From a bacterium (GTDB lineage: Bacteria > Cyanobacteriota > Sericytochromatia > S15B-MN24 > VGJW01): 64,000 nucleotides of DNA. The notes beneath the pieces were generated by a model. That model saw only the letters and a list, made by a program, of their open reading frames with translations, was not told the origin of the DNA and searched no databases. The position numbers and the translations under genes were made by a program. This document shows, piece by piece, positions 4,355-37,624 of the stretch (position 1 is the first letter of the stretch; each line of letters starts with the position of its first letter). Where the stretch lies: NCBI GenBank assembly GCA_021781555.1, contig JAJXWQ010000002.1, positions 1 to 64,000 of the forward strand. Reading direction: 5' to 3'.

Positions 4355-4366
4355 GTGGGAGCGGAT

Positions 4367-6397
4367 ATGAACCGCAGGGCTTACCTGACCCTACTCGCCT
4401 CGGGCGCGCTGCTGGCGCTCCCTGCTTGCCACGTCGCTCCGCAGCTCGGCCACGTGGCCGGGACGGCGAGCGCACCCGGGGCGCAGGCGGCTCCGCGGGC
4501 GTTCGCCGGAGGCGTGGAGTTTGCCGTGCGCTGGCCGGCACGGGGCGTGCAAACGATCCCCTCGACCACGGACCACATCACGGTCTCGGCCTTCCAGCTC
4601 GGCCAGAACTCGCCCTGCGCCACGACGACGCTCTACAACCCCTTTGCCAGTTCGACCTCGACGGCCACGGCCAGCTTGTCACCCATCGCGCCCGGAATCG
4701 TGGTCCTGACGGCCACGGCCTACGACGTGAACAACACCTCGCTGGCGGTGGGCAGCACGGACGTCGATATCCCCACCAACGGTCTCGTGCCGGCCACCCT
4801 GGTCCTGGCGTCCGCCACCAGCGCGCCGCAGATCCTCGGCATCGGGCCGACGAGCGGCATGCCCGGAGCCGAGATCGTGATCTACGGCAACAACTTCGGC
4901 CAGTCCAGCAACGCCCCCTTCTCGGTCGAGTTCGGCAATACCCCGGTCGCCAACCCCGTGCGCCCGACCGACAACGTCATCGACTTCGCGCTCCCTGGCG
5001 GCGTGGCCCCGGCCGCGGTCTCGATCACGGTGGGCGGCGTCACGGCGACGAGCTCGGTCATCGTCTCTCCGATCGCCTCGGTGAGCGTGAACACGACCAG
5101 TGCGACGACCTTTGCCCCCGGGGGAATGGTCTCCTTTACGGTGTCGGCGCAGGATATCAACGGCAAGTCCATCGCGAAGCCCAACGTGCCCTTCACCCTC
5201 GTGAACGCGGCCAGCGGCTTCGGCACGATCGGCGCCAGCGGCTCCTTCTTGAGTTCCTACACGTACGGAACGGGGGACGAGGTCGTTGGCACGGGCTCGA
5301 TCGCGGCCACCGTCTCCCTCACGACGCACTGGGTCAACCAGAACGACGCCCTCGCCGCCGGGCTCATGGCGCTTCCCGCGACGGATTCGTACGCGGGCTA
5401 CTACCCCGCGAGCGATCCCTATTACGGGCCCAAGGTGCAGCTCGGCGAGACCCTGTTTGCCGACACCGGATTCGCCGGCGGCCCCACCAAGCTCTCGTGC
5501 GCCTCGTGCCACGAGGCGGCCTTCGGGATGGAGGCCGGAAGGCCCACGGCGACCCTCAACACCGGCGCTGCCGGCAACCGCAAGCCCCGCACCCTGCTCG
5601 ACGTTGGGTTCGAGGGCGCCGGTGCCACGGGCGTGACCTTCCCCTCGAGCGTCTTCCTCGACTGGGACGGTCGGGCGGACAACCTCGAGGATCAAGCCCA
5701 GCAGGAGCTCAACGACCCCAGCGGCATCGACCAGGCCACGGCCAGCACCCTGGCGTATCTGGCCGGCAGTTCCGCCTACCAGACGGCGTTCACATCCGCA
5801 TTCGGCCCCGGTACGCCTGATGACGACTGCACCGGAAGCAACAACGACTGCATCTCGATCAAGAACGCCGTCGAGGCGCTCGCCACCTACGAGCGCAGCC
5901 TCGTGACCCCGCAGGCCTCCTTCGATCAGTGGATCTCGGCGCCGGTGGGAACCAACCCGAACAACGCCCTCAGCACCTCGGCCCAGATAGGCGTCGGTCT
6001 GTTCATCGGTTACGGTCACTGCGCCGCCTGCCACGACGGTCCGGACTTTACCGATGACCACTTCCACAACATCGGTGCCGCGAGCCCCGTCAACGTGACC
6101 GACACCGGCCGCGCCGCGATCTCGGGCAATTCCGCCGATATGAACGCCTTCTTGACCTCGAGCCTGCGCAACATCGCGCTGCGCGCCCCTTACTACCACG
6201 CGGGCCTCAACATCACGGGCGTCGCGGTGCCGGATCTGACGGCCGCCATCAACTACTACGAGGACGTGGCCTCGCACCCGGGCCTCGACCCCGAACTTCC
6301 GGTGGGCTTCGACGTGAGCGAGAATCCCACCGAGCAAGCCGCCCTCGTGGCCTTCCTGCAAAGCCTGACCGGAGCCACGCCGTCGGTGCTGCCGTAG
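4367..6397 (+). CDS. IPT/TIG-domain lipoprotein fused to di-haem cytochrome c peroxidase (MauG/CcpA family)
   Basis: Lipobox LLALPAC; TIG-like GIGPTSGMPGAEIVIYGNNFG; two CxxCH motifs (CASCH, CAACH); peroxidase signature SSLRNIALRAPYYHAG. Confidence 0.85.
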   Translation: MNRRAYLTLLASGALLALPACHVAPQLGHVAGTASAPGAQAAPRAFAGGVEFAVRWPARGVQTIPSTTDHITVSAFQLGQNSPCATTTLYNPFASSTSTATASLSPIAPGIVVLTATAYDVNNTSLAVGSTDVDIPTNGLVPATLVLASATSAPQILGIGPTSGMPGAEIVIYGNNFGQSSNAPFSVEFGNTPVANPVRPTDNVIDFALPGGVAPAAVSITVGGVTATSSVIVSPIASVSVNTTSATTFAPGGMVSFTVSAQDINGKSIAKPNVPFTLVNAASGFGTIGASGSFLSSYTYGTGDEVVGTGSIAATVSLTTHWVNQNDALAAGLMALPATDSYAGYYPASDPYYGPKVQLGETLFADTGFAGGPTKLSCASCHEAAFGMEAGRPTATLNTGAAGNRKPRTLLDVGFEGAGATGVTFPSSVFLDWDGRADNLEDQAQQELNDPSGIDQATASTLAYLAGSSAYQTAFTSAFGPGTPDDDCTGSNNDCISIKNAVEALATYERSLVTPQASFDQWISAPVGTNPNNALSTSAQIGVGLFIGYGHCAACHDGPDFTDDHFHNIGAASPVNVTDTGRAAISGNSADMNAFLTSSLRNIALRAPYYHAGLNITGVAVPDLTAAINYYEDVASHPGLDPELPVGFDVSENPTEQAALVAFLQSLTGATPSVLP

Positions 6398-25228: not shown

Positions 25229-26398
25229 TTGATCCAGGCCCCTACGCCCGGTCTGGTGATGGTCAAGCCCACGGGACCGCTCTGCAATCTCGATTGCAGC
25301 TACTGCTACTATACCGGGCGCCTGGATCTCTTCGATCCCGAGCCGCGGCGCATGTCCGACGACCAGCTCGAAGACGCCATCAAGCAGATTCTCGAGGCTG
25401 CCGGGACGCACATGCACTTCGAGTGGCACGGAGGGGAGCCCACCCTCCTCGGACTTTCGACCTTTCGCAAGATCGTGGCCTGGCAACGTCGCCACCAGCT
25501 TGCAGGGCAGACCGTCACGAACGGCCTCCAGACCAACGGCACGCTGATCGATGCCGACTGGGCGCAGTTCCTGTTCGAATTCCGGTTCTCGGTCGGCCTC
25601 AGCCTGGACGGGCCCGCCGCGATGCACGACGCGTACCGCGTCACCAGAGCTGGCCAACCTTCCCACCGGCAGGTCGTGCGGGCCCTGGCTACCCTGAGCC
25701 GGCGGCGCGTCCACGTCGACGTCCTCTGCGTCGTCCACGCGGCCAACGTCCATCAGCCCGAGGAGGTCTACCGCTACTTCCGGAGTATCGGTGTGCGCTA
25801 CCTGCAGTTCTTGCCCCTGGTGGAGCGACTTCCCGACGGGAGCATGAGCGAACGCACGCCCGAGCCGGAAGCTGTGGGCGAATTCCTGTGCCGCGTCTTC
25901 GATCTCTGGCTCGCCGAGGACGTGGGCAAGGTCGTGGTCCAGTGGTTCGACGAGGCGATCCGGCCCGAGCTCGGCTTGCCGCACTCGCTGTGCCTCTTTC
26001 GTGAGACCTGCGGCGACGTGCCGGCGCTCGAACACGATGGAACCCTGTACCCGTGCGATCACTTCGTCGATGGCGAGCACCGCCTCGGATCGATCCATGA
26101 CCACGGCCTGGCGGCTCTCTGGGAGGCACCGGACCTGGTCGCCTTCGGGGCGAAAAAGCGCCAGAACCTGTCGGAGCGATGCCGCCAGTGCGACGTCCTG
26201 GCGTGGTGTAACGGCGGCTGTCCCAAGGATCGCCTGGCCACCTCGGGCGATGGCGAGCCGGGGCGCAATTTTCTCTGCGCCGGCCTGGAGCGCTTCTTCC
26301 AGCACGTGCGCCCGGCCCTGCCAGCACTGGCCCGGCGCGTTCATGACCGACAGGCTTCCCGCAGCCGCACGATCCATGATACTTTCGACCTACGATGA
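25229..26398 (+). CDS. Radical SAM/SPASM protein, anaerobic sulfatase-maturase (anSME)-like
   Basis: MVKPTGPLCNLDCSYCYYTGRLDLF (CxxxCxxC); FEWHGGEPTLLG; C-terminal SPASM cysteines CGDVPALEHDGTLYPCDHFV...CRQCDVLAWCNGGCPKDR. Confidence 0.88.
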   Translation: MIQAPTPGLVMVKPTGPLCNLDCSYCYYTGRLDLFDPEPRRMSDDQLEDAIKQILEAAGTHMHFEWHGGEPTLLGLSTFRKIVAWQRRHQLAGQTVTNGLQTNGTLIDADWAQFLFEFRFSVGLSLDGPAAMHDAYRVTRAGQPSHRQVVRALATLSRRRVHVDVLCVVHAANVHQPEEVYRYFRSIGVRYLQFLPLVERLPDGSMSERTPEPEAVGEFLCRVFDLWLAEDVGKVVVQWFDEAIRPELGLPHSLCLFRETCGDVPALEHDGTLYPCDHFVDGEHRLGSIHDHGLAALWEAPDLVAFGAKKRQNLSERCRQCDVLAWCNGGCPKDRLATSGDGEPGRNFLCAGLERFFQHVRPALPALARRVHDRQASRSRTIHDTFDLR

Positions 26399-27099
26399 GC
26401 ACGGCCGGGCGAAATAACGCAAGCAAGCCCACCCAGATGGCTTGTGGCGCCACCGAACTGCCCCCCGATGTCTTCGACCGTCACGCCGAGATCTGCGCGG
26501 CCCTCTCCCACGGCAAGCGCTTGCGGATCGTGGCCCTCATCGCCGCCCAGGAGATGAGCGTCGGCGATCTGGCGGCCGCGCTCGGTGTGGCGCTGTCCAA
26601 CGTGAGCCAGCACCTGACGCTGCTCAAGGCACAGGGGCTCCTGCTGTCGCGCCGGGAGGGTCAGACGATCTTCTATCGGCTGGCCGATCGGCGGATCATC
26701 GAGGCCTGCATCCTCATCCGTGCCGTCGTGCTGGAGCGGCTGAATCTCGACGGTGGCACGGACCGGGGCAGCGCCCCCGCCCAGTATCGCAAGCGCCTCG
26801 CCAAACCCGACGAAAGGGGCGGCGACACGCCTCTGGCGCCTGTCGCCGGGCCAGCGCCTGGAGAACTACCGGGAGCTGCCAGGACCATCGACGCAAGCAT
26901 GGTTCCGTGCCCGGGACCGCTTCTGGCAGCCAAGAGCGCCATCTCGAGCATCAACGTGGGCGAGGTCCTGGAGGTGATTTCGGCCGATCCTGGAACCGTC
27001 GAGGACATGCCCCTGTGGGCCGGACGGGTCGGCCATGAGTATCTCGGATCCGCCCAGGATTCCGGGAAGTGGCGGCTCTTCATCAGGCGCTTGAAATAG
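26395..27099 (+). CDS. ArsR-type winged-HTH regulator fused to a C-terminal TusA (CPxP) sulfur-carrier domain
   Basis: Single open frame. HTH: ICAALSHGKRLRIVALIAAQEMSVGDLAAALGVALSNVSQHLTLLKAQGLLLSRREGQTIFYRLAD. Linker, then TusA: TIDASMVPCPGPLLAAKSAI...EDMPLWAGRVGHEYLG. ATG overlaps the anSME stop (ATGA). Confidence 0.85.
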   Translation: MSTAGRNNASKPTQMACGATELPPDVFDRHAEICAALSHGKRLRIVALIAAQEMSVGDLAAALGVALSNVSQHLTLLKAQGLLLSRREGQTIFYRLADRRIIEACILIRAVVLERLNLDGGTDRGSAPAQYRKRLAKPDERGGDTPLAPVAGPAPGELPGAARTIDASMVPCPGPLLAAKSAISSINVGEVLEVISADPGTVEDMPLWAGRVGHEYLGSAQDSGKWRLFIRRLK

Positions 27100-27126: not shown

Positions 27127-27498
27127 TTGGCAGAACTCACCAGAAAGTACGTCATCATCGCGACGCACGGGCCCGAAGACGCCGAGCGGGCCTCGCTGCC
27201 TTTTGTCGTTGGCAATGGCGTTCTGGCGATGGAAACCAACTGTACCGTCATTCTCCAGGCGGGCGCGACCCTCCTGGCCGCCCTCGGCGTCGCGGGGTAC
27301 ATCCACGCCCCCGAAATGCCTCCGCTCAAGACCCTGGTCGACCTCTTCCTCGACAACGGGGGCCACATCCTCGCGTGCGTTCCTTGCCTCAAGGCACGTC
27401 ACATCGAACCGGACCACCTCATTGCCGGTGTCGAGATCATCACGACGGGTCGCCTCGTTCTCGAATCGCTCGAAGCCGACGTCGTCCTCAGCTACTGA
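27127..27498 (+). CDS. DsrE-family protein
   Basis: KYVIIATHGPEDAERASLPFVVGNGVLAMETNCTVILQAGATLLA...GGHILACVPCLKARHI, the DsrE fold with conserved Cys. Confidence 0.8.
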   Translation: MAELTRKYVIIATHGPEDAERASLPFVVGNGVLAMETNCTVILQAGATLLAALGVAGYIHAPEMPPLKTLVDLFLDNGGHILACVPCLKARHIEPDHLIAGVEIITTGRLVLESLEADVVLSY

Positions 27499-27614: not shown

Positions 27615-28760
27615 TCAAACCCGTCCGCTGGGAACCACGAGCCAGTAGGCCGAATTGAAGGCCAGCTTGCCGAAGTGCATGGCGAAGTTTGGCTGCTTGG
27701 GTTGTGGCGGTCCCGAATAATTGAAATCCAGGAGCGTGGCCTTGCTGTCTCCGGCCTCCAGGAAGCACATCACGTGTCCATCGTACCTGGCGTGCTTTCC
27801 GGCGACCTGGCGGGCGCGCACGGCACCCGCAACCTGTGCCGCGATGGTCGGAGCCTGGAAGTGAGCCGTGCTTCCCGCCTTGCTGATGGGCAGGTTGACG
27901 GTGTCTCCGAGCGCCCAGACATTGGACGTGCCCTTGACCTGAAGGCTCTCGCGATCCACCGATACCCAGCCACTCTTGTCGGCCAGGGCATGCCCCCGCA
28001 GGAAGTCGGCTCCCAGGTGCGGTGGCACGAATACCGCAATATCGAAGGGGAACGACGATCCCTCGAGGCTCGTCGCAACTTTCGTGCCCGGATCGATACT
28101 CTCGAGGTTGAAGAAGGTCTCGATCTCGATCTTTCGCTCGAGCATGCGGGCCTCCACCATCGGCGCGACCGTCGGGATGGTGAACGGCGCGTTGATCGGG
28201 AAGGTATATCGGATCTCGGTCTTGTTCCGCAAACCGCGCTTGCGGAGGTGTTCCTCGAGCAGGAAGGTGAACTCGACCGGAGCGACGGGACACTTGTAGG
28301 GTAGCCCGGCGACGCCGATGAGGATCCTGCCGCCATCGAAGTCGGCCAGCTTCGTACGTAGCGCAAGGGCGGCTGCCTCGGTGTAGAAGTGATCACCGGC
28401 CTCGACCAATCCCGGAACCATCTCGGGAGCGCCGACGGATCCGGTAGCCAGGACCAGATAGTCGTAAGGAAGAACCTTCCCGCTGGCAAGGGACACCGTC
28501 TGCGCATCACTGTCGAGCTTCACGACCCGATCGATGCGCAATTTGACTTCCTTGCGCAGCAGAGACTCGAGAGGTCGTTCCAGCTCGGTCACATCTCCGC
28601 TGCCGAACGGAATGTAGAGCCAACCTGGCTGATACACGTGACGAGGGCTCGCGCTGATGACCGTTATCTCCGCCTCTTTGCGGGAGAATTCCTTCGCCAG
28701 CAGGTTGGCGGTGAGCGTTCCGCCCATTCCTCCGCCAAGGATCACAATTCTCTTGGCCAT
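27615..28760 (-). CDS. Sulfide:quinone oxidoreductase-like FAD/NAD(P) flavoprotein
   Basis: MAKRIVILGGGMGGTLTANLLAKEF; HVYQPGWLYIPFG; LPYDYLVLATGS; GLPYKCPVAPVEFTFLLEEHL; NVWALGDTVNLPISKAGSTAHFQA. Confidence 0.82.
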   Translation of the reverse strand: MAKRIVILGGGMGGTLTANLLAKEFSRKEAEITVISASPRHVYQPGWLYIPFGSGDVTELERPLESLLRKEVKLRIDRVVKLDSDAQTVSLASGKVLPYDYLVLATGSVGAPEMVPGLVEAGDHFYTEAAALALRTKLADFDGGRILIGVAGLPYKCPVAPVEFTFLLEEHLRKRGLRNKTEIRYTFPINAPFTIPTVAPMVEARMLERKIEIETFFNLESIDPGTKVATSLEGSSFPFDIAVFVPPHLGADFLRGHALADKSGWVSVDRESLQVKGTSNVWALGDTVNLPISKAGSTAHFQAPTIAAQVAGAVRARQVAGKHARYDGHVMCFLEAGDSKATLLDFNYSGPPQPKQPNFAMHFGKLAFNSAYWLVVPSGRV

Positions 28761-28763
28761 TGC

Positions 28764-29012
28764 CTACTTGGCCTTTCTCACGATGAAACGGGTGGCATTC
28801 TCGAAGGGCTCCATGCCCAGAAACTCGTGTCCGGCCTTTGCCACCCAGGTAGGAATGTCTCGCTTGCTGCCATCGTCCTTCGAGAGGACGGCCAGCACGT
28901 CCCCGACGGCTCCGGCTCGAACGAGCCGGATGAGTTCCATCAACGGACCGGGGCAGAAACTGCCCCGCGCATCCGATTCGCTGGTGATACTGATGTTCTG
29001 TAGGTCCGGCAT
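28764..29012 (-). CDS. TusA-family sulfur carrier protein
   Basis: DARGSFCPGPLMELIRLVRAG...RDIPTWVAKAGHEFLG; CPxP motif. Confidence 0.83.
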   Translation of the reverse strand: MPDLQNISITSESDARGSFCPGPLMELIRLVRAGAVGDVLAVLSKDDGSKRDIPTWVAKAGHEFLGMEPFENATRFIVRKAK

Positions 29013-29105
29013 GGGATGAAATCTCCTCAAATCCAGGGACATCACGTCATCTCCGGGAAGCTGGTGGCCCATCGACCGGCAGGCCAGCGCCATCCTGTGA
29101 TGGTC

Positions 29106-29522
29106 TTACAGGAACAAGGCCGTGCCATCCTCGACCTGGTTCCAGAAGCTGGCCACTCCATCGACGTCCGTCACCACCGGCTCGAGATCCTCGAGCTTGA
29201 GTTCGAACAGATCCATGGTCATTCCGCACGCAACGATCTTTACGTTGCCGATTTCCTGGGCAGATTTGAAGTTCTCTAGCCAACCCGGCACCTTCTTTTC
29301 GGACATCGAGCGCAACATTGCCGGAGCTTGGTCCTCGAAATCCTTGCTTATCCGGATGTTGGTCTTCCAGTCCCCTTTCCGGAAAGCCATGACTCCCCAC
29401 ATCGTCAGAAATATGCTGACATCCTTGCCCATGGCCGCAGCGCCCGTCGCAAGGATCGCCGCGGCCATGAGCTTGTCCACGGTGCCCGAGAAAAGCACGA
29501 TTGATACCTTATTCGACATCAT
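29106..29522 (-). CDS. DsrE-family protein (peroxiredoxin-like type), paralog of 30387..30803
   Basis: KVSIVLFSGTVDKLMAAAILATGAAAMGKDVSIFLTMWGVMAFRKGDWKTN...VKIVACGMTMDLF. Confidence 0.85.
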   Translation of the reverse strand: MMSNKVSIVLFSGTVDKLMAAAILATGAAAMGKDVSIFLTMWGVMAFRKGDWKTNIRISKDFEDQAPAMLRSMSEKKVPGWLENFKSAQEIGNVKIVACGMTMDLFELKLEDLEPVVTDVDGVASFWNQVEDGTALFL

Positions 29523-29707
29523 TCAACTCCCTGATCGAGAATTACTTGTCGGTCAAACACCTGTTCCTTCGACACATACGTCATAGCAGCCCCGCCAGAT
29601 CGGGACATCGTAGCTTTCTACGGTGCTATGTCCGCTACTTGGCGGTACAGATGTGCTTTTTCTCCCGAAATTGTCGCCTCATCCCGCAACTGCCCCATGA
29701 ATTCAGT

Positions 29708-29721
29708 ATATTCGATAATAT
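29708..29721. promoter_or_regulatory. AT-rich palindrome, candidate ArsR-type operator in the divergent intergenic region
   Basis: Perfect inverted repeat ATATT-CGAT-AATAT in an otherwise GC-rich window, between two divergent dsrE-tusA units and near an ArsR-TusA gene. Confidence 0.4.
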
Positions 29722-30386
29722 GAAATAGATACTCGGGACTAATATCGGGTTTCCAGGGCAAGGTGCGCCGCGAGAGATGCGATTCTCCGCAAGCTTCTCG
29801 GCTTTGCCGCAACCGAGCGAAGATGCGCACCATGCCTTCCCGAGCGCCAGTCCAGCGAATGTCTCGCCCGAACTCCAGCCCCGGCAGCACGGCTGCGGAG
29901 TTTCGTCCACCGAGACACCCAGGTGCAAGGGGGGCCCGAATTTGGCCTCGCGGCGCCATTCTCGCGAGGTCCGGATATTTTGCCGACGAAGGTTTCGAGC
30001 TTGCGATATACGGTAACTACGATGACAGGAATTAATCATGTCTCGCACTGAGCTGGCCGGGCAGGGCCATTGTGGCCACGTCGATCGCGCTTTCGGTCCC
30101 CTGCGGCGCGACCGACGCGGCACAAAATCCTACTGGAGCCGGTTCCCGTACGGATACCGGGGCAGATACCCTGCAAGCCAGGCGATCCGGGAGGGTCTTG
30201 CGGCGGTGTTGATCCAGATATCCTGGCGCGGATATCAATATTGCGCGCGTACCAAGGGCGACAGGACGATTTTTCTTGAAAAAGGCAGCAATGTTGGAGA
30301 TAGGCCCGAAACCCCGTAGTTAATCCATGGCTGGAAACAGGATCGAAGCCATGAGTTCCGCATGACAGCGGCATAGGAGTTCAGCA

Positions 30387-30803
30387 ATGGTAGACAAGAT
30401 CTCGATCATCCTGAGCGACGGTAGCGTCGACAAGCTCATGGTCGCGGCGACCCTCGCCTCGGGTGCGGCCGTCATGGAAAAAGAGGTGCTCCTCTTCCTC
30501 ACCATGGGCGGCCTGCTGGCGTTCCGCAAGGGCGACTGGAAGACCAACTCGGCGATCAGCCCCGATCTCGGCCCGGTTGCCGATGCGATGCGCCAGGGCC
30601 TCAAGGGTGATGAGAAGGGTGCCCTCTGGCTCACCACACTCCGGAGCGCCAAGGAGGTCGGCAACCTGGACATCGTGGCCTGTAGCCAGACGATGGACAT
30701 GTTCGGCATCAAGAAGGACGACCTGGAATCCATCGTGGATGGCATCGGGGGTGTCGCAACCTACTACTCGAAGGCCGACGACGGCCAGACCATCTTCATC
30801 TAG
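30387..30803 (+). CDS. DsrE-family protein (peroxiredoxin-like type)
   Basis: KISIILSDGSVDKLMVAATLASGAAVMEKEVLLFLTMGGLLAFRKGDWKTN...LDIVACSQTMDMFGI. Confidence 0.86.
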   Translation: MVDKISIILSDGSVDKLMVAATLASGAAVMEKEVLLFLTMGGLLAFRKGDWKTNSAISPDLGPVADAMRQGLKGDEKGALWLTTLRSAKEVGNLDIVACSQTMDMFGIKKDDLESIVDGIGGVATYYSKADDGQTIFI

Positions 30804-30845: not shown

Positions 30846-31100
30846 ATGCCAGCAGTGGATCTATCCACACTCAGCCCCGAGAAGATGATCGATGCCCGCG
30901 GAATGGCCTGTCCTGGTCCCTTGCTGGAGGCCAAACGCGCCATCCCTGGCGTCAAGATCAAGAGCATCCTGGAAGTCACGTCCTCTGACATCGGCACCCT
31001 CGAGGATATCCCCCTGTGGTGCAAGAAAGTCGGCCACGATTACCTCGGCAACCTCGAGGAGGCGGGTTACTGGCGCGTCTTCGTGCGGAGAGGGAAGTAG
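30846..31100 (+). CDS. TusA-family sulfur carrier protein
   Basis: MIDARGMACPGPLLEAKRAIPG...EDIPLWCKKVGHDYLG; CPxP motif. Confidence 0.87.
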   Translation: MPAVDLSTLSPEKMIDARGMACPGPLLEAKRAIPGVKIKSILEVTSSDIGTLEDIPLWCKKVGHDYLGNLEEAGYWRVFVRRGK

Positions 31101-31101
31101 C

Positions 31102-31518
31102 GTGACTTCCGCAGTTCCGCCCCGGGGCGTCCAGGTCGACGATCCCAAGATCCTGGTCTTCTCGACGCAGAATATCTCGGATCCTGGCATCGATCTTGCC
31201 GGAAGTGCGCACATGCCCTACTCGACCGCGGTGAACGTGATCAGCTTGCCCTGCTCGAGCGGGATTCATCCCCGGTGGATCGTGCGCGCCATCAAGGCCG
31301 GTTTCGATGGCGTCTTCATCGCCGCCGACGGCAGCGACTGCGCATTCCTGGCGGACTGCACCGACAAGACGGCCAGCCTGGTGAAAGACGCCCAGGGCAT
31401 GCTCAAAGAGTCCGGAGAAGACCCGCGCCGGATCCGCATGGGAGCGATCTGCTCGGTCTGCGCCGAACCTTTCGTCAACAACCTCAAGCAGTTCGGCGAC
31501 CTGTTGAAGCAACTCTGA
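31102..31518 (+). CDS. MvhD/FlpD-type hydrogenase iron-sulfur (electron transfer) subunit
   Basis: KILVFSTQNISDPGIDLAG...VNVISLPCSSGIHPRWIVRAIKAGFDGVFIAADGSDCAFLADC...RIRMGAICSVCAEPFVNNLKQF. GTG start one base after the tusA stop. Confidence 0.85.
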   Translation: MTSAVPPRGVQVDDPKILVFSTQNISDPGIDLAGSAHMPYSTAVNVISLPCSSGIHPRWIVRAIKAGFDGVFIAADGSDCAFLADCTDKTASLVKDAQGMLKESGEDPRRIRMGAICSVCAEPFVNNLKQFGDLLKQL

Positions 31519-31689: not shown

Positions 31690-34428
31690 ATGAAATACGA
31701 CGTAATGGTGGTCGGAGGCGGTATCGCCGGAATGGAGGCCGGCCTCACTTTGGGCGACATGGGCTTCAACGTGCTCATGGTCGAGAAGAAACCCAGCGTG
31801 GGCGGTCGCATGATCCTCCTGTCCAAGGTGTTTCCGACCCTCGACTGCGCGAGCTGCGTGTCGGCGCCCAAGATGTCGGCCACCGGCAACCATCCCAAGG
31901 TCGACCTCCAGGTCAACAGCGAGGTCAAGGACATCCGACCGCAGTTAGACGGAACCTTCAAGGCCAAGCTCGTCCGCAAGGCTACCTTCGTCGATCCCGC
32001 GGCGTGTACCGGATGCGCCAAGTGCGAGACGGTATGCACGGTCGCGACGCCGGACCACTACAACTATGACCTCGCCGCGAACCGGGCCATCCACATCGCA
32101 TTCCCCCAGGCCGTGCCCAAGAAAGCCGTCATCACCAAGGAAGGCTCGTCGCCCTGCTCGTACGCATGCCCGGCCGGCGTCCAGACCCACGGCTACGTAT
32201 CACTGGTGCGGGCCGGCAAGTATGCCGAGGCCTTCCGTCTCCACATGGAGGACGCGCCCCTGCCGGGAAGCTTGAGCCGCGCGTGCTACGCGCCCTGCGA
32301 GGGAGCCTGCACGCGGGGTGATCTCGAGGGCAATCTCTCGATCCGGGCCATCAAGCGGTTCATGGTCGATCGTTACTACGCCGAGCACCCCGAGCCCGAG
32401 TACGGAATTCCCGAGGCGCTCCGCTCGGATCGGATCGCCATCGTGGGCTCGGGTCCCGCCGGCCTCTCGGCCGCCTACTTCCTCGCCCGAAAGGGCTACC
32501 CGGTGACCCTCTTCGAGTCCGATCCGGAGGCGGGCGGCATGCTCCGGCACGGGCTGCCTCCCTACCGCTTGCCGCGGGAGATCGTCGACCGCGACATCAA
32601 GAACATCACGGCGCTCGGAGTCGAGATCAAGACCGGAACGCCCATCGGCTCCCTCGAACAGATCCAGCAGCAGGGCTATGCGGCCACCTTTCTCGCCGTG
32701 GGCACGCTGGCAGGCCAGGGACTCGAGGTCCAGGGGCGCGACCTGGAGGGCGTCGTGGACGCCATGGACTTCCTTTCCGGGACCTACCAGGGCAAGCCTT
32801 CTGCGGCCGCTGCCGGCCAGCGCGTGGTGGTCGTGGGCGGCGGCAACGTCGCCATCGACGCCGCCAGGGTGGCCCTGCGCCAGGGCGCCAGGCAGGTCTC
32901 CATGGTCTATCGCCGCACCCGCGCTGAGATGCCGGCCCACAGGGCCGAGATCGCCGACGCCCTGTCCGAGGGCATCGCACTTCAGGAGCTGCGCGCCCCC
33001 GCCGGATTCGTCGGCCAGGGCGGCAAGGTTGTCGCCGCCAGGTGGCAGGAGATGCGCCTGGGCGCACCCGACGCCAGCGGGCGGCGGCGTCCCGAGCCGG
33101 TTCCCGGCCATATCAAAGAGGAGCCAGCCGACCTCATCATCCTGGCGATCGGCCTCGCCCCGAGCACCGGACCCTTTGCCGGCCTGGGCCTCGACCTGGA
33201 CGGGACCTTTGCGGTGGACCAGGAATCGCTGGCCACGGCGGTTCCTGGGGTCTTTGCCGGCGGCGACGCCGCCACCGGTCCGGGCATGATCATCGCGGCG
33301 ATCGCCCAGGGCAAGCGTGCGGCCTTCTACATCGAGCGCTTCCTGAATGGTGAATCGCTCCAGGGTGTCACCTTCGATGCGCGCCTTCCGGTCGTCTCCC
33401 ACGACACGGTCCTGGCCCGCGCCGAGGGCCCACGCTCGGCGCGTCCCAAGACGAAGGTTCCGGAGCTTCCGGTCGAGACCCGCGTCCGCTCCATGGTCGA
33501 GGTCGAGCAGCCGCTGACCGAAGATCAGGCTCGGGCCGAGGCCAGTCGTTGCCTCGACTGCGGAGTGTGTTCGGAGTGCCACCAGTGCGTCGAGGCGTGC
33601 CCTGCCGGCGCGATCCACTTCGACCAGCGCGAGGTCGAGGCCGAGATCGAGGTCGGCTCGGTCCTGGTCGCCACGGGATTCGACCTCTTCGACGCCAGGA
33701 AGAAGCCGACCTACGGATTCGGCTCGAGCGCCAACATCATCACGGCCACGCAGATGGACCGCATCCTCGCCCCGACGCGGCCCTACAACAGCGTGATCCG
33801 GCCGTCGGACGGCAAGGCTCCCGCCAACATCGCCTACGTGCTCTGCACCGGCTCCCGCGATTGCACGGTCGGGAACTCGCTGTGCTCGCGGGTCTGCTGC
33901 ATGTACTCCATCAAGCAGGCGCAGCTCATCATGGGCTCCCTGCCGCTGGCCGACGTGACGATCTACTCGATCGACATCCGAGCCTACGGGAAGGGGTACG
34001 ACGAGTTCTACGAACAGGCCCAGGGAATGGGCGTCCGGTTCATCAAGGGCCGTGTCGCCAAGATCGAGCCCACTGCCGACGACAACGTGATCGTCACCTA
34101 CGAGGACATCAACGGCAAGGTGGGCGTCCAGAAAGCAGAGCACGATCTCGTCGTCCTGTCGGTCGGGCTGTCGGCCAACCCCGAGGCATTCGGCCTGATG
34201 ATCGCCCCCGGCCTCGCCCGCGACCCCTACAACTACGTGCTCGAGCCGGACGAGGACCTGGAACCGGGCCGCACCAGCATACCTGGCGTCTTCGTCGCCG
34301 GGACGGCCGCGGGCGTCAGGGACATTCCGGATACCGTCCTCCACTCCGGCGCCGCGGCAGCCCAGGTCGCCGCGTACCTGCGCCGCAACAGCAGCCGCAC
34401 GGCTGCAGCCCTAGCTGGGAGGCCATAG
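31690..34428 (+). CDS. HdrA-like FAD/4Fe-4S protein with inserted GltD-like (NAD(P)H glutamate synthase small chain type) domain
   Basis: N-terminal HdrA FAD motif VGGGIAGMEAGLTLGDMGFNVLMVEKKPSVGGRM; ferredoxin CTGCAKCETVC; GltD motifs CPAGVQTHGYVSLVRAGKYAEAF, GSGPAGLSAAYFLARKGYPVTLFE, VVGGGNVAIDAARVALRQGA; then HdrA resumes (CSECHQCVEACPAGAI...CTGSRDCTVGNSLCSRVCCMYSIKQA). Confidence 0.86.
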   Translation: MKYDVMVVGGGIAGMEAGLTLGDMGFNVLMVEKKPSVGGRMILLSKVFPTLDCASCVSAPKMSATGNHPKVDLQVNSEVKDIRPQLDGTFKAKLVRKATFVDPAACTGCAKCETVCTVATPDHYNYDLAANRAIHIAFPQAVPKKAVITKEGSSPCSYACPAGVQTHGYVSLVRAGKYAEAFRLHMEDAPLPGSLSRACYAPCEGACTRGDLEGNLSIRAIKRFMVDRYYAEHPEPEYGIPEALRSDRIAIVGSGPAGLSAAYFLARKGYPVTLFESDPEAGGMLRHGLPPYRLPREIVDRDIKNITALGVEIKTGTPIGSLEQIQQQGYAATFLAVGTLAGQGLEVQGRDLEGVVDAMDFLSGTYQGKPSAAAAGQRVVVVGGGNVAIDAARVALRQGARQVSMVYRRTRAEMPAHRAEIADALSEGIALQELRAPAGFVGQGGKVVAARWQEMRLGAPDASGRRRPEPVPGHIKEEPADLIILAIGLAPSTGPFAGLGLDLDGTFAVDQESLATAVPGVFAGGDAATGPGMIIAAIAQGKRAAFYIERFLNGESLQGVTFDARLPVVSHDTVLARAEGPRSARPKTKVPELPVETRVRSMVEVEQPLTEDQARAEASRCLDCGVCSECHQCVEACPAGAIHFDQREVEAEIEVGSVLVATGFDLFDARKKPTYGFGSSANIITATQMDRILAPTRPYNSVIRPSDGKAPANIAYVLCTGSRDCTVGNSLCSRVCCMYSIKQAQLIMGSLPLADVTIYSIDIRAYGKGYDEFYEQAQGMGVRFIKGRVAKIEPTADDNVIVTYEDINGKVGVQKAEHDLVVLSVGLSANPEAFGLMIAPGLARDPYNYVLEPDEDLEPGRTSIPGVFVAGTAAGVRDIPDTVLHSGAAAAQVAAYLRRNSSRTAAALAGRP

Positions 34429-34430
34429 TC

Positions 34431-36170
34431 ATGACAGAGAAACGCAGGCTTGGCGCCTTCATCTGCCACTGCGGCGGCAACATCTCGGACTTCGTCGACG
34501 TCGCAGCCGTTCGTGATGCTGCCGGCAGGGAAGACGACGTCGTCGTGGCCCGCGACTTCATGTTCGCCTGCTCGGATGGCGCTCAAGCCGAGATGAGCGA
34601 GCTCATCCGGTCCGAGAAGCTCGACGGCATCATCGTCGCCTCGTGTTCCCCCAAGCTCCACCTCAACACCTTCCGAGGCATGTCGGGCCGCGCCGGGCTC
34701 AACCCCTACACCTACAACCAGGTCAACATCCGCGAGCAATGCTCCTGGGTCCACCGGCACGACACGCCGGCCGCGACCGCCAAGGCCACCCGGCTGGTGC
34801 GCGGCGGTCTGGCCAGGTCGCGCTTTTCCCGGCCACTCACGGATCTGCGCGTCGAGACCGTCCCCGCGGTCCTGGTGATCGGGGCGGGCGTCGCCGGAAT
34901 ACGGGCGGCGCTCGCGCTGGCCGATATGGGAATCGCGGTCTACGTCGTCGAGCGGGAGGCCACGGTAGGCGGCAACGTGGCCACCTGGGGCAAGCTCTTC
35001 CCCCACGATCGCCCGGGAAGCGAGATCGTCGCCACGCTGCTCGACGACCTCAACAAGCACCCGAACATCTCGCTCTTCACGAACGCCGAGCTGACGGCCA
35101 AGAGCGGCAGCGTGGGCAACTTCACCGTGCAGGTGCAGCTCCGGTCCGAGACGATATCTCTCCACGTCGGCGCGATCATCGTCGCGACCGGACTCGAACC
35201 GTACACCCCCCGGCCTGGCGAGTACGGTTACGGCACGCCCGGCGTCATCACGCTCCACGAGTACAAGCAGCTGGTGGACGAGGCCACGGGACCCCTCACC
35301 TACCAGGGCAAGCGCGTCAAGACCGTCGCCTACATCTACTGCGTCGGCAGCCGGCAGGGCAGCGATCCCGATCTCGAGGAGCCCAACCTCTTCTGCTCAC
35401 GCTACTGCTGCTCGGCGGCCTGTCACTCGGCAAGCCTCGCCAGCACGGCCGATCCAGACCTCGACCAGATCCATCTTTACCGCGACATGCGGACGTATGG
35501 TCGGCATGAAGTCCTTTTCGAGGAAGCCGGGCGCAAGGGTTCGGTCTTCATGAAGTTTGCCGGGGAAAATCCCCCGACGGTCGAGAGCAGCGACGACCAG
35601 CTCACGGTCAAGCTGAGGGACGACCTCGCTGGCGGCGAACAAGCCGAGATCCCGGCCGATCTCGTGGTCCTGGTGGCCGGGATGGTGCCCCGCGAGCGGG
35701 CCAAGCTGCAGGAGATCTTGAGGCTCCCGCTGAGCAAGGGCGGCTTCTTCAACGAGATCCACGTCAAGCTCCGGCCCGTGGAGACCGTCGTCGACGGTGT
35801 GTTCATCGCCGGAGCCTCGCAGGGCCCCAAGACCGTGGCCGAGGCGGTGGCGTCCGCCCTGGCTGCGGTGTCCAAGAGCGCGGCGCTCCTCTTGAAGGGC
35901 TACATCGACCTGCCGCCGCTGGTGGCCAAGGTCGATGCCAGCAAGTGCACCCTGTGCGACAACTGCTTCGGCGCCTGCCCGTACGAGGGCGCCATCACCC
36001 GGCAGGAGGTCGACGGCCGCCAGGTGGCGGCGATATCCCCCAATATCTGCAAGGGCTGCGGCGGCTGCGTCCCGGTCTGCCCGAACGAAGCCATCGGCGT
36101 CGACGGCGTCACCGGCACCCAGGTCACCGCGGCGATCGACGCCATGATGAAGGATCGGGTCCATGCCTGA
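34431..36170 (+). CDS. HdrA-like heterodisulfide-reductase subunit A family protein
   Basis: LGAFICHCGGNISDFVDV; IVASCSPKLHLNTFR; VIGAGVAGIRAALALADMGIAVYVVEREATVGGNVATWGKLFP; YCVGSRQGSDPD...CSRYCCSAACHSA; C-terminal CTLCDNCFGACPYEGAI...CKGCGGCVPVCPNEAI. Confidence 0.9.
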   Translation: MTEKRRLGAFICHCGGNISDFVDVAAVRDAAGREDDVVVARDFMFACSDGAQAEMSELIRSEKLDGIIVASCSPKLHLNTFRGMSGRAGLNPYTYNQVNIREQCSWVHRHDTPAATAKATRLVRGGLARSRFSRPLTDLRVETVPAVLVIGAGVAGIRAALALADMGIAVYVVEREATVGGNVATWGKLFPHDRPGSEIVATLLDDLNKHPNISLFTNAELTAKSGSVGNFTVQVQLRSETISLHVGAIIVATGLEPYTPRPGEYGYGTPGVITLHEYKQLVDEATGPLTYQGKRVKTVAYIYCVGSRQGSDPDLEEPNLFCSRYCCSAACHSASLASTADPDLDQIHLYRDMRTYGRHEVLFEEAGRKGSVFMKFAGENPPTVESSDDQLTVKLRDDLAGGEQAEIPADLVVLVAGMVPRERAKLQEILRLPLSKGGFFNEIHVKLRPVETVVDGVFIAGASQGPKTVAEAVASALAAVSKSAALLLKGYIDLPPLVAKVDASKCTLCDNCFGACPYEGAITRQEVDGRQVAAISPNICKGCGGCVPVCPNEAIGVDGVTGTQVTAAIDAMMKDRVHA

Positions 36171-36453
36171 AGACTTGACCGCAAAACCCCGGATCCTGCG
36201 CGACCGCGCCGAAGTCATGCGCGATGAACTCGTCTGGCGCCAGCGCATCGCCGCGGTGATGCAAGACACCCCCATGACCCTCCCGGAGATCGCGGCGGCG
36301 CTCGGCCAGCCGAACGACGAGGTGACGATCTGGGTCATGGGAATGCGCCGGTACGGGCTCATCGAGGAGCTGCCCAAAAGCCGTGCCGACGACTACTTCC
36401 GGTACGAACTCAAGCACGGATCGCAAGGAGAGCTGAACCATGGCTCGCATTGA
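36163..36453 (+). CDS. Small winged-helix-like protein of the hdr/qmo operon
   Basis: 96 aa; LPEIAAALGQPNDEVTIWVMGMRRYGLIEELPKSRADDYFRYEL looks wHTH-like. Overlaps the upstream stop and downstream start. Confidence 0.7.
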   Translation: MPEDLTAKPRILRDRAEVMRDELVWRQRIAAVMQDTPMTLPEIAAALGQPNDEVTIWVMGMRRYGLIEELPKSRADDYFRYELKHGSQGELNHGSH

Positions 36454-37624
36454 CCCTGGCCTGCACCGAGAGCTCAAGAAATACGGTGCAACAGGCCTGA
36501 CCGCCTGCATGAACTGTGGCAACTGTACTGCCACCTGTCCCCAGTCGACCGACAACGAGGTCTTCCCGCGCCGGATCATCCACTTCGTCCAGGCGGGGAT
36601 GACGGATAAACTACGGGGATCGGTCGAGCCCTGGCTATGTTATTACTGCGGAGACTGCTCCGAGACCTGCCCCCGTGATGCTGACCCGGGCGAGAGCATG
36701 ATGGCGGTCCGGCGCTACCTGACCGGCCAGTACGACTGGACCGGGCTTGGCAGATGGTTCTACAAATCTCCCGCATTCCAGCTCACGGCCATGGCGCTCA
36801 CGGCGCTGGCCGTGGTCCTGGCCTTTTACTTCCTCCACGGGCCCATCGTCACGGATCACGTGGCTCTCGACACCTTCGCGCCGGTGGCTTCCATCGAACT
36901 CGCCGACCGGATCGGATTCGTCATCCTGGCTGCGCTTTTGCTGAGCAACGTGATCAGGATGGCAACCTGGATCCTGCGCTCGGATACCGACCATCCGGTA
37001 CCCTTCGCCCTGCTCCTGCGCGAGTTTTTGACCTTGCCCGTGCACTTCGTGACCCAGAAGAAGTGGCTCAAGTGCGATGCCGCCTCCGAGCCAACCGGCC
37101 GGAGCCTGGCAGCTCGTCTCGCCTGGCTGAAGAGCACGCGGTGGGTAAGGCACTTCTTTCTGGTGACTGGCTACCTAAGCATGATGATCCTGGTCGAGGG
37201 AGCCCTCCCGCAGTTCCAGACCGACGCGATCCGCCCCTGGTTCCACTGGACGCGCCTGCTGGGCTACTACGCGACGGTCATGCTGATGTGGCATGGAGGG
37301 AGCTTCCTGGTCGGCCGCCTTCGCAAGTCCGACCCGATCCACAAGTTCTCGACCCCCAGCGACTGGATGTTCCTCGTACTGCTGCTCGCAGTGGCGTTCA
37401 CCGGTATCCTGGTGCACATCTTCAGGCTGTCCGGCCTGCCCCTGCCGACCTACGTCATGTACGTGGTCCACATGGCGGTCGTGGCTCCTTTCCTCATCAT
37501 CCAGGTTCCCTTCGGCAAGTGGTCGCACATGGCCTACCGGCCCATGGGGGTTTACCTTGCCAAGGTGAGGCAGAGTGCCCGCGAAAAGCTCGACGCCGCC
37601 GCGGGAGAGCTGGCGCCGGCCTGA
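36440..37624 (+). CDS. qmoC: QmoC-like subunit: HdrC-type 2x[4Fe-4S] N-terminus fused to cytochrome b-like membrane domain
   Basis: CMNCGNCTATCPQ...CYYCGDCSETCPRDADPGESMMAVRRYLTGQYDWTGLGRWFYKS then about 5-6 TM segments (GYYATVMLMWHGGSFLVGR, FTGILVHIFRLSGLPLPTYVMYVVHMAVVAPFLI). Confidence 0.85.
   Translation: MARIDPGLHRELKKYGATGLTACMNCGNCTATCPQSTDNEVFPRRIIHFVQAGMTDKLRGSVEPWLCYYCGDCSETCPRDADPGESMMAVRRYLTGQYDWTGLGRWFYKSPAFQLTAMALTALAVVLAFYFLHGPIVTDHVALDTFAPVASIELADRIGFVILAALLLSNVIRMATWILRSDTDHPVPFALLLREFLTLPVHFVTQKKWLKCDAASEPTGRSLAARLAWLKSTRWVRHFFLVTGYLSMMILVEGALPQFQTDAIRPWFHWTRLLGYYATVMLMWHGGSFLVGRLRKSDPIHKFSTPSDWMFLVLLLAVAFTGILVHIFRLSGLPLPTYVMYVVHMAVVAPFLIIQVPFGKWSHMAYRPMGVYLAKVRQSAREKLDAAAGELAPA

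Follow-up and report, generated by a model that had tools for sequence, protein, structure and literature searches.

How sulfur is delivered to the ArsR repressors of the cytoplasm is an open question. In Hyphomicrobium, TusA may hand sulfur to SoxR or to sHdrR, a matter that the authors' own data cannot decide (Li et al., 2024; PMC11582611), and many of the regulators encoded next to shdr genes have no Cys pair and possibly follow another mechanism (PMC12423496). In the locus described here, a TusA domain is tied covalently to such a pair-less regulator. The locus lies in a window of 64,000 nucleotides (the whole stretch of DNA that was analysed), part of a 3.8-Mb draft genome that is 98.65% complete; the host genus belongs to relatives of cyanobacteria that are probably non-photosynthetic.

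An ArsR domain and a TusA domain in one polypeptide

The fusion gene translates into 234 residues with a single stop, at its end, and an ArsR and a TusA domain are joined in this single protein (Table 1). The N-terminal part belongs to the ArsR/SmtB transcription factors by its winged-helix profiles (NF033788, 83.7 bits against a cut-off of 55; the Pfam families HTH_20, 8.8e-11, and HTH_5, 4.2e-10, both above cut-off, at residues 37-84) and by its modelled fold. The predicted helix alpha5 runs on to residue 116 (position 26742), which brings the ArsR domain to about residues 31-116. The C-terminal part is a TusA sulfurtransferase by a full-length profile match (positions 1-70 of the 70 in PF01206, 67.2 bits against a cut-off of 28.6) and by the Cys of its CPxP motif; that this residue, C172, would carry a persulfide is assumed by analogy with the TusA family. 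A preliminary description of this DNA had reported an uninterrupted frame encoding ArsR and then TusA with a CPGP motif, as well as exactly four Cys residues (C17, C34, C105 and C172). The translation and the Pfam and NCBIfam profiles agree with the former, the translation has the same four Cys, and the domain limits then proposed are close to those found here (predicted ArsR helices, residues 24-116; TusA, residues 163-232).

Table 1. Coordinates of the fusion gene, its parts, the neighbouring genes and the candidate operator in the window
Feature	Position	Strand	Evidence or remark
Radical SAM/SPASM protein (anaerobic sulfatase maturase family)	25259..26398	+	TIGR03942, 400 bits, above cut-off
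arsR-tusA fusion gene, 234 aa	26395..27099	+	Single open frame; same frame in second species
Cys17, N-terminal tail	26443..26445	+	Kept in second species (L009)
ArsR winged helix-turn-helix	26485..26703 (aa 31-103)	+	NF033788 (NCBIfam HTH_metalloreg ArsR/SmtB), 5.8e-24
Cys34, helix alpha1, motif HAE(I/L)C	26494..26496	+	Not a canonical SqrR/BigR position
Cys105, helix alpha5, motif (E/Q)AC	26707..26709	+	Not a canonical SqrR/BigR position
Linker, predicted disordered	26749..26877 (aa 119-161, ~43 residues)	+	pLDDT <50 at 121-149
TusA domain	26881..27090 (aa 163-232)	+	PF01206, 1.2e-18; CPGP with Cys172 at 26908-26910
DsrE-family protein, CxxC (C84, C87)	27127..27498	+	PF02635, 6.1e-10
Type III SQR-like flavoprotein	27615..28760	-	NF049943, 1.6e-105, below model cut-off
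TusA	28764..29093	-	PF01206, 9.1e-17
DsrE2-like protein	29106..29522	-	PF13686, 4.1e-24
Candidate operator, perfect 7-6-7 palindrome GATATCC-N6-GGATATC	30217..30236	.	Upstream of Hdr-type operon
DsrE2-like protein, gene 1 of divergent operon	30387..30803	+	PF13686, 2.3e-16
TusA of Hdr-type operon	30846..31100	+	PF01206, 3.3e-20
FlpD/MvhD-like protein	31213..31518	+	Weakly similar to protein beside G064 HdrA genes
HdrA/QmoA-like protein, inserted NAD(P)H oxidoreductase (GltD-like) domain	31690..34428	+	
Second HdrA/QmoB-like protein	34431..36170	+	NF040770, 2.7e-143, below cut-off
QmoC-like protein	36440..37624	+	31% identity to counterpart in G064 locus

Alignments A2 and A3, in which the tails were misplaced, were left out of the modelling. 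The ArsR part was predicted by AlphaFold2 with a mean pLDDT of 88 and matched the folds of SmtB, CzrA, HlyU and SqrR in Foldseek, and the TusA domain was predicted to adopt a beta-alpha-beta-alpha-beta-beta fold. In the full-length model both domains are confident, residues 121-149 have a pLDDT below 50 and the pTM is 0.47; on these grounds, the model describes two domains that are tethered without a predicted fixed contact. It is compatible with C172 lying near to, or far from, C34 and C105.

Conservation and spread of the fusion

According to the preliminary description, absence of the fusion from all relatives would have spoken against the proposed sensor. A second species of the same genus (MAG DBS2-1.bin124; L009/G001) carries the fusion, also with 234 residues, 81% identical and free of indels, and all four Cys residues, including the C34, C105 and C172 singled out earlier, are present in both species. 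The dN/dS ratios between the two genes are 0.08 for the ArsR segment, 0.62 for the linker (49% identical) and 0.21 for TusA; both domains are thus under purifying selection and the linker is relaxed. The intact second copy and these ratios rule out a frameshift or assembly artefact.

Both genomes of the genus carry the fusion; it was absent from the 16 other genomes of the class and was found nowhere else among 388 genomes of the phylum. Nor did it turn up in 59 relatives from outside the genus, in the phyla of G059 (149 genomes), of an Acidiferrobacteraceae MAG (399 genomes) or of a KSB1 MAG (82 genomes), or in the plasmids and viral contigs searched. A pattern scan of a species-representative genome collection, which reaches close relatives only, returned one further fusion, that of the second species. 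As the large searches scored the best few candidates per genome and left out the sulfur-active Desulfobacterota, Acidobacteriota and Nitrospirota, more distant ArsR-TusA fusions may exist. The known fusion sequences number two, and part of their identity reflects recent ancestry.

Cysteine positions and relatives of the ArsR domain

The preliminary description had likened the ArsR cysteines to the pairs of SqrR, BigR and sHdrR, an analogy that does not hold in detail. In sensors of that type the two Cys residues belong to alpha2 and alpha5, and sulfur bridges them on exposure to sulfane sulfur. The sHdrR pair is formed by Cys50 and Cys116, 66 residues apart (PMC12423496). Among about 100 ArsR relatives, collected with a pattern that favoured some groups, Cys is common at alignment columns 47 and 113, also 66 apart; the fusion has Ala47 and Leu113 there, which rules out a SqrR/BigR-type sensor at the residue level, and the BigR model scores only 51.2 bits against a cut-off of 155. 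In the ArsR tree, the fusion, the ArsR-rhodanese proteins and two TusA-less ArsR proteins (L010 and L135) lie on one side and the SqrR/BigR types, with their Cys pair, on the opposite side (support 100/98), the inner forks being unresolved. By this placement, the ArsR domain of the fusion groups with that of ArsR-rhodanese fusions.

We know of no precedent for the pair C34/C105. Among the ArsR relatives examined, only the two fusions and L010 combine both residues; the latter, an ArsR protein from a Bacillota MAG, is 42% identical, has no TusA domain and is the only distant homologue with both residues. L135, also without TusA, has C34 and lacks C105. A DsrE gene is right beside the ArsR gene in L135 and L155; in L010 the distance is about 5 kb, in the downstream direction, and the regulator has an RND-type transporter as its neighbour. 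The ArsR proteins of L010 (6290-6640) and L135 (1483-1842) form a small TusA-less group with the motif HAE(I/V)C and DsrE genes nearby, separated from the next ArsR hits by an E-value gap of more than 30 orders of magnitude with a profile built from that same group.

A metal sensor of the SmtB type was also considered. In the alignment to SmtB, the LQDHHIV region, where the alpha5 metal ligands would lie, reads LADRRII in the fusion, with loss of His; SmtB-type metal ligands are not evident, and a sensor of this type seems unlikely.

Genes surrounding the fusion

On the plus strand, a PLP-dependent enzyme, a dienelactone hydrolase, the radical-SAM protein, the fusion and a DsrE-family protein are encoded in this order. 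The radical-SAM stop codon overlaps the ATG of the fusion by 4 nucleotides (ATGA) in both species, and the DsrE gene starts 27 bp past the fusion, an order that the second species keeps; its product is a likely partner of the fusion. The sulfur setting noted in the preliminary description is borne out, with TusA, three DsrE-type, SQR-like and Hdr/Qmo-like genes nearby and DsrE directly 3' of the fusion in both species. A sulfatase gene was not noticed beside the radical-SAM gene. Elsewhere in the window, 4355-6394 encodes a protein of 680 residues, of which 360-528 form a di-haem cytochrome c peroxidase (MauG) domain.

The Hdr-type operon is comparable to a TusA-FlpD-HdrA-HdrA-QmoC-DsrE2 set in G064. 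Residues 1-161 and 622-899 of its HdrA/QmoA-like protein match one HdrA of G064 (451 residues), and some 460 residues, the GltD-like insert, lie between these parts; the same split protein, ended by a contig edge, is found in the second species (G001:C185; L108). The insert suggests that the Hdr-type complex trades electrons directly with NAD(P)H.

Within the class, a full-length Hdr-type protein occurs in the same two of 18 genomes as the fusion and in no other, the matches in the other genomes covering the NAD(P)H-oxidoreductase part only; likewise, a full-length Hdr/TusA/DsrE locus near the fusion is confined to this genus. Since both are present in the same two genomes only, locus and regulator are restricted to one genus, which fits, and does not prove, their joint acquisition.

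A candidate operator upstream of the Hdr-type operon

The preliminary description had pointed to the intergenic region 29523-30386 as a target, which is plausible. This region shares 60% identity with its counterpart in G001 and has two conserved blocks, at about 29965-30031 and 30208-30248. The latter holds a perfect palindrome, the only inverted repeat in the region that has arms of 6 bp or more without any difference between the species; the two differences between the species within it both fall in the spacer. In a stretch of 860 bp, a perfect inverted repeat of 7 bp is no rarity even by chance, and the weight of this one rests on its conservation. None of 500 column shuffles of the alignment reached an arm length of 7, in a control that breaks up the conserved blocks; we ourselves estimate at about 5% the chance that one of two conserved blocks of 40 bp would contain a perfect inverted repeat of 7 bp. 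The exact palindrome occurs once per genome in both species, at the Hdr operon, and two-mismatch matches lie at four further places in G000, against one for a control pattern. No sigma-70 promoter-like match was found at the palindrome. The other block, between the divergent operons, contains a GGATAT that resembles half of it.

The palindrome is a good candidate for the site of some regulator of the Hdr operon. We infer that the fusion may bind it; it could also be owned by another regulator. In the window, no exact copy was found upstream of the fusion's own operon, and autoregulation through this palindrome is thus not indicated; neither an exact nor a two-mismatch site lies near that operon, and this candidate was set aside.

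Discussion

The reading that we prefer, with confidence that goes about halfway, is that of a repressor under the control of the TusA carrier tethered to it. The TusA domain, on its flexible linker of ~43 residues, would be the input domain of a one-component ArsR repressor. When sulfur flux is low, the dimer would sit on DNA near the Hdr/DsrE/TusA genes, with the palindrome as the best candidate site; DsrE or TusA partners would charge C172 with a persulfide, and the sulfur, or the charged TusA domain, would act on the ArsR core, possibly through C34 and C105, so that a charged relay would free the DNA and allow expression of the genes for sulfur handling. In this scheme we infer the repressor sign, the ligand, the loading by partners, the transfer to C34/C105 and the DNA target. 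In its favour are the integrity of the fusion in two species, with purifying selection on both domains, a relaxed linker and a complete TusA catalytic motif; the DsrE gene directly downstream in both, with TusA, DsrE2, SQR-like and Hdr/Qmo-like genes alongside; the sharing of the same two of 18 class genomes with the full-length Hdr-type protein; the DsrE genes near the closest TusA-less ArsR relatives and the recurrence of C34/C105 in L010; the conserved palindrome upstream of the Hdr operon and the lack of evident SmtB metal ligands; and the published proposal of sulfur transfer from TusA to SoxR or sHdrR (PMC11582611). Against it stand the absence of the canonical SqrR/BigR Cys pair, the loose arrangement left by the linker and the low pTM, the lack of an exact palindrome upstream of the fusion's operon and the number of fusion sequences, which is two. 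A more specific version is tentative and somewhat unlikely: the TusA domain, charged by DsrE partners, would pass its persulfide within one polypeptide to the non-SqrR pair C34/C105, and transcription would report flux through the relay and not free polysulfide.

The persulfide on C172 could itself be the signal, the charged TusA domain docking on, or leaving, the ArsR core with no sulfur passed to C34/C105; the fusion would then act as ArsR-rhodanese regulators do, its sulfurtransferase being the sensory domain. The grouping of the ArsR domain with that of ArsR-rhodanese proteins, apart from BigR/SqrR types, speaks for it, as does the finding that the ArsR domains of the ArsR-rhodanese examples met here have no Cys, or no SqrR-type pair, and that their rhodanese domains have a CRGPYC loop. 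However, that side of the tree has unresolved forks, and the retention of C34 and C105 in both fusions and in the TusA-less L010 suggests a role for them in the ArsR core; we regard this alternative as rather unlikely. It is less probable still that the ArsR domain regulates the fusion gene itself in response to another signal and thereby sets the level of the fused TusA, a working Hdr/DsrE carrier with no direct chemical coupling to it: the linker evolves freely and is predicted to be disordered, the TusA motif is intact and two more TusA genes lie alongside, but these stand-alone proteins already serve the locus, upkeep of the fusion needs some benefit, and the ArsR domain has no evident candidate metal site. 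That C34 and C105 form an ordinary thiol redox switch (a disulfide) or a site for a thiophilic ligand, with TusA as a localisation or interaction module only, agrees with their positions in alpha1 and alpha5 and with the pair in L010, but is distinctly improbable given the sulfur context of the fusion and its nearest relatives and the purifying selection on TusA.

With SqrR, BigR, SoxR, sHdrR, HlyU and YgaV, the sulfane-sulfur-responsive ArsR repressors, the fusion shares the ArsR fold, a sulfur gene context and Cys residues in the ArsR core; in contrast to them, it lacks both canonical Cys residues, has a TusA domain and falls outside their group in the tree. The ArsR-rhodanese regulators (for example L141, L142, L144 and L152) are alike in placing ArsR N-terminal to a sulfurtransferase with a persulfide-carrying Cys and lie on the same side of the tree, but the C-terminal domain of the fusion is TusA and the protein is not of the rhodanese type: TusA, with another fold and other partners, replaces the rhodanese, and the linker is disordered and the ArsR core has two extra conserved Cys residues. 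The ArsR proteins of L010 and L135 share with the fusion the HAE(I/V)C motif, C34 (and, in L010, C105) and a DsrE gene nearby; they differ in having no TusA domain and, in L135, no C105. The TusA domain has the CPGP motif of the TusA proteins of Hdr-type operons and is 51% identical to that of the adjacent operon (30846-31100), its nearest match in the genome, with which, and with the G064 TusA, it groups in a small tree (94/93); by this identity and grouping it may derive from the Hdr-operon lineage. It differs from these proteins in being joined to a DNA-binding domain and in having DASM or DATM, instead of the usual DARG, before CPGP.

What was already known is the ArsR-sulfurtransferase fusion in its ArsR-rhodanese form, met repeatedly here; what is new is ArsR-TusA with a non-canonical Cys pair. 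A literature search found no paper joining the term 'TusA domain' with ArsR or describing an ArsR-TusA fusion, and none on TsoR, an NCBIfam name. Two questions, whether TusA transfers sulfur to a repressor and how a regulator acts without the Cys pair, can be addressed on one small protein with four Cys residues. Internal transfer from C172 to C34/C105, if true, would define a distinct class of ArsR sulfur sensor, and, if the switch is real, the carrier joined to the repressor may give the cell a direct reading of its sulfur traffic.
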